A stretch of 64,000 nt of DNA, taken from NCBI GenBank assembly GCA_029553475.1, contig JAKPKV010000064.1, positions 1-64,000 on the forward strand. The letters are read 5' to 3'. The notes under the pieces were generated by a model. That model saw nothing but the letters and a program-made list of their open reading frames with translations, ran no database searches and was not told the DNA's origin. Below are positions 179 through 14,155 of this stretch, piece by piece; the first letter of the stretch is position 1, and each line of letters opens with the position of its first letter. Source of the stretch: Armatimonadota bacterium (GTDB lineage: Bacteria > Armatimonadota > Hebobacteria > CAIYQO01). Position numbers and translations under genes: made by a program.

Positions 179-382
179 TTCCGAAAATGACACATTTCCG
201 GAAATTAATATACGGCTATGGGCCTCTTTTGTCAAACACTTCGCGCATTTGCTCCCCTCAAACGCCCCCTGCATCGCCCCCGGACAGCAGCCCTCGGGGC
301 AAAATGCCCCCAGGCAGGCGTACCAGCGCGCCGGACGACACATTTTCGCCCGCTGGCTTCCGAGAATGTGTCATTCCTGGAA
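179..382. repeat. Invertible promoter segment, locus 1 (OFF orientation)
   Basis: This 204-bp segment is bounded by inverted 25-bp sites. The left site (179-203) has arms TTCCGAAAA and TTTCCGGAA around spacer TGACACA. The right site (358-382) has arms TTCCGAGAA and TTCCTGGAA around TGTGTCA, the reverse complement of the same spacer. The interior aligns along nearly its whole length with the reverse complement of 12647-12853. The flanks outside the sites (CGTGCC.GCGCGGACGG on the left, G.GGCGT.A.GCC on the right) align in the same direction at both loci. The interior is therefore inverted relative to its surroundings. Its promoter points away from the pseudopilin at 427. Confidence 0.75.
207..235 (-). 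promoter_or_regulatory. Sigma-70 promoter inside the invertible segment, facing left
   Basis: Read on the minus strand: -35 TTGACA (230-235), 17-bp spacer, -10 TATATT (207-212). Transcription would leave through the left recombination site towards position 1, away from the pseudopilin gene. A perfect 12-bp palindrome, ATTTCCGGAAAT (194-205), lies just downstream of the -10 and forms the inner arm of the site. Confidence 0.7.
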
Positions 383-426: not shown

Positions 427-1626
427 ATGTCTCACATGCAGCGCAGGGGAGGCCGTCGCGCGGGCTTCACCCTCATCGAACTCCTGGTGGTGATCGCGAT
501 CATCGCGATTTTGGCCGCCATCCTCTTCCCCGTCTTCGCCAAGGCGCGGGAGAAAGCCCGGCAGAATTCCTGCATCAACAATCAACGGCAAGTCGCCATT
601 GCCATCATGATGCATGTGCAGGATCATGAAGAAACCTTCATGTCCAACACCGCGCCGAATGCCTGGTCGTCGCGGTTGAAGGACTACAACGAGCCGACGA
701 TCTACGACTGTCCGACGAAGACCGGCAAAGGCAACAACGCCGCCCCGGAATACGGCTTCAACTACTACCTCTTCAGCAAAGCCCTCGGCGATATCGAAAC
801 GCCGGTCGCCGCCATCCTCACCGCCGACCTGGACATGAGTGACCCGGACGACACCTACACCATCTCCGACTACGAAACGCAGGTGGACGCGCGCCACACG
901 AAAGGCACGGTGCTGTCGTGCGTGGATGGGCACGTGGTGCAAGTCACGCTGACCAGCGGGGCCAAGCTGAAAGATCTCCTCGACAAAGGGTACGATCTCT
1001 TCTGCGGCGGCGGCACCACCGTCCTGGACGAACCCGCGGAGATCACCGCCGGCACCACCACGACGACCGGTTATACCTGGTACATCGCACCCGACGCCGG
1101 CACGCCCACCGTCTATACGCTGCCGGACAGCGCCTGCTACAAGACCGGCGATACCACCACGCCCAACGTCAGTATCCAGGCGGATATCGCGCAGAACACC
1201 AATTATAACGACCAGACCTGGGAAGCGTTCGGCCTGTACCTGCCCCATCCCCCCACCGATGCCTCCCGCACGAACGGGCTGTATCTGGTGGAAAACGGCT
1301 ACCCGAATTACGGCTTCACCGTGAACCAGAGCCTCCAGGATTTTACCAAGGGCAAGATTCCCTACGCGTTTTCAGAAACCACCAACCAGAAACACTCAAC
1401 GGGCTACTACTTCCGCTTCCAGGTGTATCTCCTGGGCAACACTGCCACCTATTCCGTTGCAGAGTATAGGAACGACAACCTGAGCAAGGTACTCGGCAGC
1501 GGTTCTACCGCCATCAACTGGTCAGCACTGAAAGACCAGAAGAGCACGGTTCCCTTCATCTATATCGCCAACAACCGTGCCATCACCGTCTTCGTCAAGA
1601 ACGTGCTGGTGAAAATACTCAAGTAA
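427..1626 (+). CDS. Type IV pilin-like / pseudopilin protein with H-X9-DG motif (paralogue 1)
   Basis: A 399-residue secreted or surface protein with a class III prepilin leader. A short basic N-terminus ends in RRAG, cleavage is predicted before FTLIELLVV, and a hydrophobic helix of about 20 residues follows. The conserved [12 protein letters not shown] and [17 protein letters not shown] blocks come next. [14 protein letters not shown], in the middle of the protein, matches the H-X9-DG motif of planctomycete and armatimonad pseudopilins. The roughly 210-residue C-terminal extension is not recognised. The ATG at 427 follows GGAAAGGAG; longer upstream starts would run through the invertible segment. 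It closely resembles the protein at 12959 through the first 250 residues. Its promoter segment is currently reversed, so it is probably silent in the sequenced orientation. Confidence 0.9.
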
Positions 1627-1815: not shown

Positions 1816-3660
1816 TCAGTCCTTCCGCTCGTGCGCCTTCAGCAGGCGCTTGCGCAGCCGCAGGGACGCCGGGGTGATTTCCACGTATTCGTCGTCCTGG
1901 ATATAGCCGATGGCGTCTTCGAGGGACAGGAGGCGCGGCGGGGTGAGGCCGACGTCAATCTCCGAAGTGGAAGCGCGCATGTTGGTGAGCTTCTTCTGGC
2001 GGGTGATGTTCACCACCAGGTCGTTGTCGCGGGCGTTTTCGCCGACGATCATCCCCTCGTAGACCTCCACGCCGGGGCCGATGAAGAGCACCGAGCGCTC
2101 TTGCAGGCTTTCGATGGCGTAGCCGGTGCTGAGGCCCTGGTTCATGGCGATCATCACCCCGCGCGTCCGCCGCGTCACCTCGCCGGCGAGGGGGCCGTAC
2201 TCCAGGAACTGGTGATGCATCACGCCGGTGCCGCGGGTGCTGGTGAGAAAATCGGTGCGGTAGCCGAAAAGGCCGCGCGCCGGGATGCGGAAGCGCAGCC
2301 GCGTCTTGCCGTCCGCCCCCACCTCCATCTCCAGCAGCTCCGCGCGGCGCGCCCCCACCCCCTCGATGACCGTGCCCACGTATTGCTCCGGCACGTCAAT
2401 GGTGAGCTCTTCATACGGCTCGCAGCGCGCGCCGTCAATCTCGCGAGTGATGACGCGCGGCTGGGAGACCATGAACTCGTACCCCTCGCGGCGCATCGTC
2501 TCCATGAGGATGGTCAGGTGCAGCTCGCCGCGTCCGGAGACCGTGAAGGCGTCCGGCGAGTCCGTCTCCTCCACGCGCAGCGCCACGTTCGACTGCAGCT
2601 CGCGCAGCAGCCGCTCGCGCAGGTGGCGGCTGGTGAGGAATTTGCCCTCGCGCCCGGCGAAGGGCGAGGTGTTCACCAAAAAATCCACGCTGATGGTCGG
2701 CTGGTCCACCGCGATGCCGGGCAGCAGGTCCGGCGCCGCCGGATCGCCAATCGTCGCGCCGATGCTCACCGTCTCCAGCCCGGCCAGCGCGATGATCTCG
2801 CCCGCGCCCGCCTGCGTCGCCTCCGCGCGCTGCAGGTGCTCGAAGATATACAGCCGCGACACCTTGCCGGTGATGGACGCGCCCGCCAGCGGGTGCAGCG
2901 CCACCGTCTCGCCCAGCCGCACGCGGCCGCGCTCGATGCGCCCGATGGCGAGCTGCCCGAGGTAGGGTGAGTAATCCAGCGTGGAGACGAGCATCTGGAA
3001 CGGCCCTTCCGGCTGCACGCGCGGGGTGGGCACGTGGCGCAGGATCGCCGCGAAAAGCGGCGCCAGGTCCGGGCCGTCGTCCGCCGGGTCGAGCATCGCC
3101 GTGCCCAGCTTCGCCGAGCAGAAGACGGTGGGGAAGTCGAGCTGGTGGTCATTGGCGCCGAGGTCAATGAAAAGATCGAACACCTCGTTATGCACCGCGT
3201 GCGGGCGCGCGCCGGGGCGGTCAATCTTATTGATGACCACGATGGGCTGCAGCCCCAGCTCCAGCGCCTTGCGCAGCACGAAACGCGTCTGCGGCATCGG
3301 GCCGTCGGCGGCGTCCACCAGCAGCAGGCAGCCGTCCACCATGCGCAGGATGCGCTCCACCTCGCCGCCGAAGTCGGCGTGGCCGGGCGTATCCACGATG
3401 TTGATCTTCACGTCGCCCCAGCGGATGGCGGTGTTTTTGGCCAGGATGGTGATGCCGCGCTCGCGCTCCAGCGGGTTGGAGTCCATCACTCGCTCCGCCA
3501 CCTGCTGGTTCGCGCGAAACGCCCCCGCCTGGCGCAGCATCTGGTCCACCAGCGTGGTCTTGCCGTGGTCCACGTGTGCAATGATCGCGATATTCCGCAG
3601 GTGCGCGGGCGCGAGGATGCCGTCGTCGAGTTGTGCCGTAATCGTCATGGTCCCCTTCAC
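1816..3660 (-). CDS. typA: Ribosome-associated translational GTPase TypA/BipA
   Basis: A 614-residue translation-factor GTPase of the EF-G/LepA superfamily that acts on the 70S/50S ribosome in ribosome assembly and stress adaptation. The G1 motif AHVDHGKTT is at residues 28-36, followed by G3 [12 protein letters not shown] and G4 [12 protein letters not shown]-Tu domain 2, EF-G domain III/V-like regions and the BipA-specific C-terminal domain follow. Length matches the family (about 605-615). The start at 3660 is used because of its position behind a TATAAT promoter; the ATG four codons in (3648) is an alternative. It is monocistronic, with its own promoter at 3704-3733. Confidence 0.95.
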
Positions 3661-12646: not shown

Positions 12647-12853
12647 TTCCGAAAACCGCACATTCTCGGAAGCCAGCGGGCGACACAGTGGCTGATGGGC
12701 GCTCCTCCACGCCTGTATGGGGCGTACCTTTGCACCGCGGGCTGCTGTCCGGCGGCGGTACCGGGGGCGTTTGAGGGGGCAAATGCGTGAAATATTTGAC
12801 AAAGTAGGCGCATGCCGTGTATACTGATTTCCGGAAATGTGCGGTTCCCGGAA
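12647..12853. repeat. Invertible promoter segment, locus 2 (ON orientation)
   Basis: This 207-bp segment is bounded by inverted 25-bp sites. The left site (12647-12671) has arms TTCCGAAAA and TTCTCGGAA around spacer CCGCACA. The right site (12829-12853) has arms TTCCGGAAA and TTCCCGGAA around TGTGCGG, the reverse complement of the spacer. The interior is the reverse complement of the locus 1 interior (179-382), while the outer flanks match locus 1 in the same direction. The internal promoter points rightwards to the pseudopilin at 12959. The rest of the 658-bp gap between lysA and the pseudopilin holds no gene. Confidence 0.75.
12796..12825 (+). promoter_or_regulatory. Sigma-70 promoter driving pseudopilin 2
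   Basis: -35 TTGACA (12796-12801), 18-bp spacer, -10 TATACT (12820-12825). The predicted start, about 12832, falls inside the right recombination site, and the leader is about 127 nt. ATTTCCGGAAAT (12827-12838) and GTTCCCGGAAAC (12844-12855) directly follow the -10, so a bound recombinase or regulator would block transcription. Confidence 0.8.
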
Positions 12854-12958: not shown

Positions 12959-14155
12959 ATGTTCCGTACCCGAGGATTCACCCTCATCGAACTTTTGGTG
13001 GTGATCGCGATCATCGCGATTTTGGCCGCCATCCTCTTCCCGGTGTTTGCAAAGGCGCGCGAGAAGGCGCGCACCAACACCTGCATGAACAATCAGCGGC
13101 AAATCGCCCTCGCCATCCAGATGTACGTGCAGGACCATGAGGAAACCTTCATGCCGGACAGCGGCAACAACGCCTGGTCGTCGCGGCTGCAGGCCTACAA
13201 TGAGCCCACCATCTACGATTGCCCGACGAAGACCGGCAAGGGCAGCAACACCGCGCCCGAATACGGCTTCAATGCCGCGCTTTTCAGCGTGGCGCTGGGT
13301 GACGTGAAGAACCCGACCCTCTGCCCCCTCACGTCGGACGCCGTGGTCAGCGGCGCCACCAGCCCGAATTTCGCCTTCACCGATTTCGACGCCCAGCTTG
13401 ACGCCCGCCACAACAAAGGGCTGAATATCGCCTGCGCGGACGGCCACGTCGCCTACGAGGCGTTCGCCAACACCAATGACTCAAAATTCGGCCTGCTCAT
13501 CGCCCGCGGCTACGACCCCTATGACGGCGTGGCCCCGGTGCTGGAGCAACCGGCGGAACTCAGCCGCGCCCAGATCACCAACCAGTGGGCGAAAGCCGCC
13601 GTCACCTATGATCTCCCCGCCGGCGCCTACTACGATGCCGCCCAGCCGAACCCCGTGCAGCCGAGCTTCGTCGCCGAAGCCGAGCTGAAGTGGTCGGCCA
13701 CCGGCTACGTCGCCGCCGTGCTGGGCGTCTTCCTGCCCGACGGCGCCGCCGTGGTGGCCAACGACGGCTGGTACTTCGGGCCGGTGAGCTACCGCACCCC
13801 GCAGTTCGGCGCCGGGCCGATCTGCGACCACACCACCGGGCCGAACAACGGCAATCCCAGCGCCAGCATCTGCGACCTCTACAATCCGTATGGCTGGACC
13901 GCCGGCGAGACCCCCGTGCCGAACGCCGCCAACGTCTGGTACACTTGCAAAAGTTTCGGCTTCCGCCAGGCGGACGGCAGCTTCAAGATGATGACCACCT
14001 TCTCCGGGAACGGCGGTCTGAAGGTGAAGACCTCCACCCAGCCGGCGGCGACCGTGGCGAACTGGCAAGACCAAAAACAGGTGGCGCTGATGGTCTACTC
14101 CAACACTACCTTCACCGGCTCCATCAGGAACGTGCGGGTGCGCGTGCTGCCGTAG
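12959..14155 (+). CDS. Type IV pilin-like / pseudopilin protein with H-X9-DG motif (paralogue 2)
   Basis: A 398-residue paralogue of the protein at 427. The prepilin leader is very short (MFRTRG), cleaved before [34 protein letters not shown] and [14 protein letters not shown] (H-X9-DG) follow. The last 230 residues differ from paralogue 1 and contain aromatic, Asn/Gly-rich segments of unknown fold. GAAAGGAG lies 8 nt before the ATG. The gene would be exported, processed by prepilin peptidase and assembled or displayed through a type II secretion/type IV pilus-like apparatus encoded elsewhere. It lies downstream of the invertible segment, which is in the expressing orientation. Confidence 0.92.

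Follow-up and report, generated by a model that had tools for sequence, protein, structure and literature searches.

Promoter inversion at multiple loci is already known. In the Cre/loxP system of phage P1, each site has a pair of inverted arms with an asymmetric spacer between them, sites placed in inverted orientation lead to inversion, and matching spacers are needed, as heterospecific lox sites illustrate. Cre works on simple sites without helpers, and in the biology of both Cre/lox and lambda-Int, strand exchange requires spacer identity. Mpi is a serine recombinase. In Bacteroides fragilis, many promoters are inverted, by the global invertase Mpi/FinA at capsule loci and by tyrosine recombinases such as Tsr19 at single loci, and Mpi has been described as one global invertase acting at seven capsule loci (PMC12632263, PMC3090145). 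For the RecV-type system of Clostridioides difficile, one report describes seven inverting sequences, among them a pdcB switch of 174 bp with imperfect 19-bp repeats (PMC9286219). A survey of gut genomes found some that lie far above 37 invertons, with up to 181, and invertases near invertons were generally not placed so as to be regulated by them (PMC11892184). In the open-access library that was searched, no paper was found on phase variation together with Armatimonadetes, on DUF1559 together with pseudopilins, or on switches of this type for pseudopilins or in the phylum.

Here we examine a 207-bp segment (12647-12853) of the window, the 64,000-nucleotide stretch of DNA that was analyzed. 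In the first-pass annotation this segment had been called an invertible promoter in the ON orientation in front of a pseudopilin gene. At a probability of about 0.88, we consider the segment to be an inverton, one of about 37 in its genome, that is flipped by a Cre-like recombinase (likeliest the one encoded on contig C43), with private spacers insulating the elements from one another. The new features are the private spacer codes, the pseudopilin targets and the self-switched recombinase.

Methods

The genome that was searched (G000) comprises 5.27 Mb in 194 contigs, and the window corresponds to C109:1-64000. Family members were counted with a pattern built from the inner end distal to the promoter, and chance matches to this pattern were discarded by eye. 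A first, generic site-pair score at recombinase genes was uninformative in GC-rich DNA, where 97 of 400 random stretches scored 28 or more, and it was replaced by a half-site score.

Results

Direct reading of the sequence places the 207-bp segment between two inverted sites whose spacers are perfect reverse complements (Table 1). The near-consensus sigma-70 promoter of the first-pass annotation is present within it, and its 11/12 match is the sole one in 600 bp, where shuffled sequences are expected to give 0.1. The promoter is directed at the ATG at 12959 of a protein with N_methyl and DUF1559 domains, in agreement with the ON orientation and the pseudopilin target that had been proposed. 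A second family element is situated near the start of the window. Its promoter (TTGACA at 235-230, TATATT at 212-207, minus strand) is directed away from its pilin, and both states therefore occur within the window: OFF at this copy and ON at 12647-12853.

Table 1. Coordinates of the window elements, their pseudopilin genes and the elements at recombinase genes
Feature	Position	Strand	Details
Second family element	179..382	-	Spacer TGACACA; sites 179-203 and 358-382; OFF
Pseudopilin behind second element	427..1626	+	399 aa from ATG 427; OFF in the assembly
Left putative recombination site	12647..12671	+	Arm TTCCGAAAA, spacer CCGCACA (12656-12662), inner arm TTCTCGGAA
Predicted invertible interior	12672..12828	.	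Homologous to interiors of other family elements
Sigma-70-like promoter inside element	12796..12825	+	TTGACA (12796-12801), 18 bp, TATACT (12820-12825); faces pilin, ON
Right putative recombination site	12829..12853	+	Inner arm TTCCGGAAA, spacer TGTGCGG (12838-12844), outer arm TTCCCGGAA
Target pseudopilin	12959..14155	+	398 aa, ATG 12959; N_methyl (PF07963) and DUF1559 (PF07596)
C43 recombinase element	L039 3964-4158		Gene starts inside element; right site within coding sequence
C34 recombinase element	L073 ~873-1060		Spacer-matched inverted-site element at gene start
C90 recombinase element	L075 ~3327-3546		Spacer-matched inverted-site element at gene start
Second element upstream of recombinase	L223 8357-8570 and L224 9282-9508		Two genera of another family; spacer GACGGTA

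A 301-bp query around the window element matched 45 places in its own genome, the longer ones at 69-80% identity. The site pattern TTCCGRRAA-N7-TTYYCGGAA gave 47 exact matches versus 0 for a reversed-pattern control, and 86 versus 5 when up to three mismatches were allowed. The inner-end pattern yielded about 37 homologous elements, which rules out a unique switch. The switch reading of the first-pass annotation was supported, but its scope of a single locus was too small, as the segment is 1 of about 37 switches. The roughly 37-fold repetition, the second copy at 179-382 and the location of the recombinases are additions to that annotation. In a comparison with relatives, the site had no exact match in 40 other genomes, and scattered single sites were among the matches listed in a scan of genome contigs that may not include the window's own genome. 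The window element had no real match in four related genomes.

An outward sigma-70-like promoter is present in every one of the 31 complete elements; it consists of TTGAC[A/G] and, 16-19 bp away, a TATACT-like -10, and it fires across the right site. A pseudopilin (H-X9-DG) target lies beside 28 of the 31, and the pilin ATG is typically 44-50 nt outside the site, the same in the ON and OFF states. The three elements for which no pilin is listed are L022, located where a contig starts and bearing a flank of the pilin type, L009, which adjoins what we take to be a secreted sulfatase-modifying-type protein, and L032, next to a presumed lipoprotein. DUF1559 matches occur at 85 places in the genome, about 33 of them behind an element by our own count; over half are without an invertible element. 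One longer variant (L017 1170-1547) measures 378 bp, versus about 205 bp, and has matched GCGCGCA spacers. At L023 4164-4205, tandem overlapping sites with the spacers TTACGTA and TTACACA have one arm in common, an arrangement perhaps left behind when the element recombined with a different one.

Within each of the 31 complete elements the two spacers agree in inverted orientation, at 217 of 217 positions overall, even though 28 different 7-bp spacers occur among the elements. None of 2000 shuffles reached the observed match at any of the seven spacer positions, and left-right matching at the variable arm positions was at or below the shuffled level. Since the spacers are matched and the arms are not, identity is confined to the site centre. 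The set was not selected on the spacer, as 30 of the 31 elements fit the site pattern with at most two mismatches at each end. The bases beside the spacer hardly vary, so the 7-bp figure does not fix the exact length of the overlap. As judged from these comparisons, identity limited to the spacer is the footprint that would be expected of a tyrosine-recombinase crossover region. By analogy with characterized enzymes, identity at the centre would be needed for strand exchange, and repeated inversion would homogenise it. The sites have the anatomy of tyrosine-recombinase sites, namely inverted arms around a spacer of 6-8 bp that is the same in both partners. This spacer-limited identity, together with Cre-like recombinases beside such elements, upholds the site type that had first been assigned. 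Three spacers (TGACACA, TGGCCTG and TCGCATG) are each common to two elements, and the members of these pairs could cross-react with each other. At outer-arm position 7, there were 6 left-right matches versus 14.9 expected, meaning that the two ends differ there more often than by chance; this position appears to follow the gene side versus the far side, and not the interior.

Among the 28 elements in front of pseudopilins, 11 are ON and 17 are OFF. Two flank classes recur, a gene-side class that ends in a GAAAGGAGTGTAGAGGT-ATG leader and a far-side class that resembles CCGCGCGGACGG. Each class was found joined to both inner ends, and the break falls at the spacer. In one pair of paralogous loci, C13 (L017:3984, OFF) and C83 (L028:999, ON), the flanks on the gene side agree at 40/40 positions and gene plus leader are 69.9% identical, while the interiors are 96% identical when inverted versus 60.5% in the same direction. 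An orthologous comparison between two genera is provided by a second element upstream of the recombinase in G234 and G032. The spacer is common to both, the outer arms are matched by position and the interior is inverted (score 95.5 inverted and 62.5 in the same direction, with 74.5 the highest score among 200 shuffles). The promoters thus lie between inverted sites adjoining a gene, and both interior orientations occur against homologous flanks, in paralogous loci and in one short orthologous element between genera. These comparisons argue for the invertible promoter that the first-pass annotation had predicted. On the pilin tree, the ON and OFF states change 8 times versus a shuffled mean of 8.2 (26 pilins; weak tree with long branches), and this lack of phylogenetic signal fits switching.

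The genes beyond the second element at L223 and L224 look like those of secreted proteins. The interiors at L017 3984-4188 and L028 999-1203 are near-identical between differing spacers and flanks and, with the contig ends of C2, C83, C52 and C126 included, interiors are 96-100% identical across loci. Such sharing may arise by gene conversion. Gene-side as well as far-side flanks meet one and the same inner end at the contig ends C2/C83 (spacer TCGGGCA) and C151/C23 (spacer CCGCATG). The overlap between several pairs of contigs is exactly 141 bp long, a length that resembles an assembler k-mer. The contig ends were set aside as evidence of mixed orientation, as the exact 141-bp overlaps and paired same-spacer elements explain them equally well.

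Ten proteins of the genome contain PF00589. Three recombinases, on C43, C34 and C90, are paralogs with 50-54% identity. The C43 protein has 349 aa with a PF00589 catalytic domain, placing it in the tyrosine recombinase (Phage_integrase) family, and its frame and those of its paralogs are intact. Cre structures are its best solved relatives (E 2e-19), with the alignment spanning the C-terminal catalytic region. The first codons of the C43 gene run through the right site of a degenerate element of the pilin type, in which the spacers match at 6/7 positions and the -10 is weak. Elements with related arms and matched spacers also accompany the C34 and C90 genes, which lie shortly downstream of them or have their start inside them; in both cases the element's promoter is directed at the gene. 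Among 291 genomes from the phylum, homologs of the recombinase were present in 22, its own genome counted. In G032, G234 and G002, the start of the recombinase gene is again at a spacer-matched site pair, and no such pair was found at 14 other homolog loci. Half-site scores were 19-22 for C34, C90, G032, G234 and G002. Random stretches gave no more than 14, seven other recombinases no more than 13, and G001 was borderline at 14. The readable promoters (C34, C90, G032, G234 and G002) are all aimed at the recombinase, so the enzyme is encountered only in the ON state. A flip to OFF would take away the enzyme needed to reverse it.

The sites and interior of the C43 element are the most like those of the pilin elements, and the C43 recombinase is therefore probably the enzyme that acts on them. 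As that element is degenerate, C43 is a best guess among the three paralogs. A search for a second dispersed family belonging to C34 and C90 found only their own sites. The simple form of the sites fits a Cre-like enzyme by analogy.

Discussion

We propose that a Cre-like tyrosine recombinase, most likely C43, would bind the 9-bp arms of both inverted sites and exchange strands across the 7-bp spacer. About 180 bp would be flipped, so that the promoter would come to face the pseudopilin (ON) or away from it (OFF), with transcription presumably lost in the OFF state and the flip reversible in the present-day bacterium. Each element would pair with itself by means of its private spacer, and recombination with other elements would be hindered; because strand exchange requires the same spacers, private spacers would insulate the loci. 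The predicted outcome is dozens of largely independent ON/OFF switches of surface pseudopilins run by one enzyme. The fuller reading, in which a Cre-like recombinase runs dozens of switches that are barred from cross-reaction by private spacers, and in which the recombinase genes are themselves self-switched such that a flip turns the enzyme off, has about even odds in our estimation.

The alternative that survives best is that inversion took place in the past and is now locked, the orientations being fossils and each pilin either constitutively on or silent. The support for switching comes from sequence comparison and one recombinase-gene copy is degenerate, as this alternative would have it. 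Nevertheless, spacer identity at 217/217 positions amid varying arms and interiors calls for homogenisation or selection that is recent or still going on, and the frames of C43 and the paralogous recombinases are intact. We therefore regard a locked state as improbable.

Less probable still is that the elements are promoter-carrying mobile repeats, similar to MITEs or REPINs, that inserted by chance in front of pilins in either direction and do not invert. The roughly 37 copies resemble such a family in their dispersal, in their terminal inverted repeats and in that some interiors are nearly identical across loci despite differing spacers. Random insertion is, however, a poor fit to the constant short distance to the ATG in both directions at most pilin loci and to the junctions of homologous flanks with either inner end. 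Neither a direct target-site duplication nor a scattered insertion position was found; the 7-mers that match are in inverted orientation within the palindromic ends. Insertion would also leave identity restricted to the spacer within a copy unexplained, and none of the elements was found to include a transposase. Finally, it is highly improbable that the ends are nucleic-acid hairpins (kissing loops, a terminator or a cruciform) whose 7-nt loops are kept complementary by base pairing. Every copy does have palindromic ends, each built around 7 nt, and its two centres complement one another. Yet because the promoter sits between the ends, with its start site within or beside the right site, the left hairpin is off the transcript. 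The arms lack covariation between the ends, and the interior occurs in both directions at homologous flanks.

If the inverton switches are live, roughly 33 of the 85 DUF1559 pseudopilins would be under flipping promoters, mostly with different spacer codes, and the bacterium could vary which of dozens of surface proteins are made. A switchable surface repertoire would give a reason for the large and unexplained expansions of H-X9-DG pseudopilins. Private spacers would be a natural way to run many switches with one enzyme while leaving the chromosome unscrambled, and they would supply mutually exclusive sites on which a Cre-like enzyme could work.

The family resembles the B. fragilis system in having many promoters within short inverted repeats, a trans-acting recombinase, surface molecules as targets and a mixture of ON and OFF loci. 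Unlike Mpi inversion, which involves a serine recombinase and a 2-bp crossover, it comprises about 37 elements of the tyrosine-recombinase type with a private 7-bp spacer each, pseudopilin targets, a homogenised 7-bp spacer and element-linked tyrosine recombinases. As in C. difficile, where some of the elements carry promoters, several loci would be phase-varied through short invertible elements by site-specific recombination; the targets in C. difficile are unrelated, and the accessible part of that report makes no mention of a family-wide spacer code (PMC9286219). The likeness to Cre/loxP lies in simple sites with inverted arms around an asymmetric spacer and in Cre being, among solved structures, the one nearest to the C43 recombinase, whereas loxP has 13-bp arms of unrelated sequence, an 8-bp spacer and a phage plasmid role, and protein identity is low. 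The elements are also like the promoter invertons of gut bacteria in the PhaseFinder and PhaVa catalogues, in which a promoter lies between inverted repeats near surface genes. Unlike the pattern in the gut survey, three paralogous recombinase genes are here placed where an inverton could drive them.
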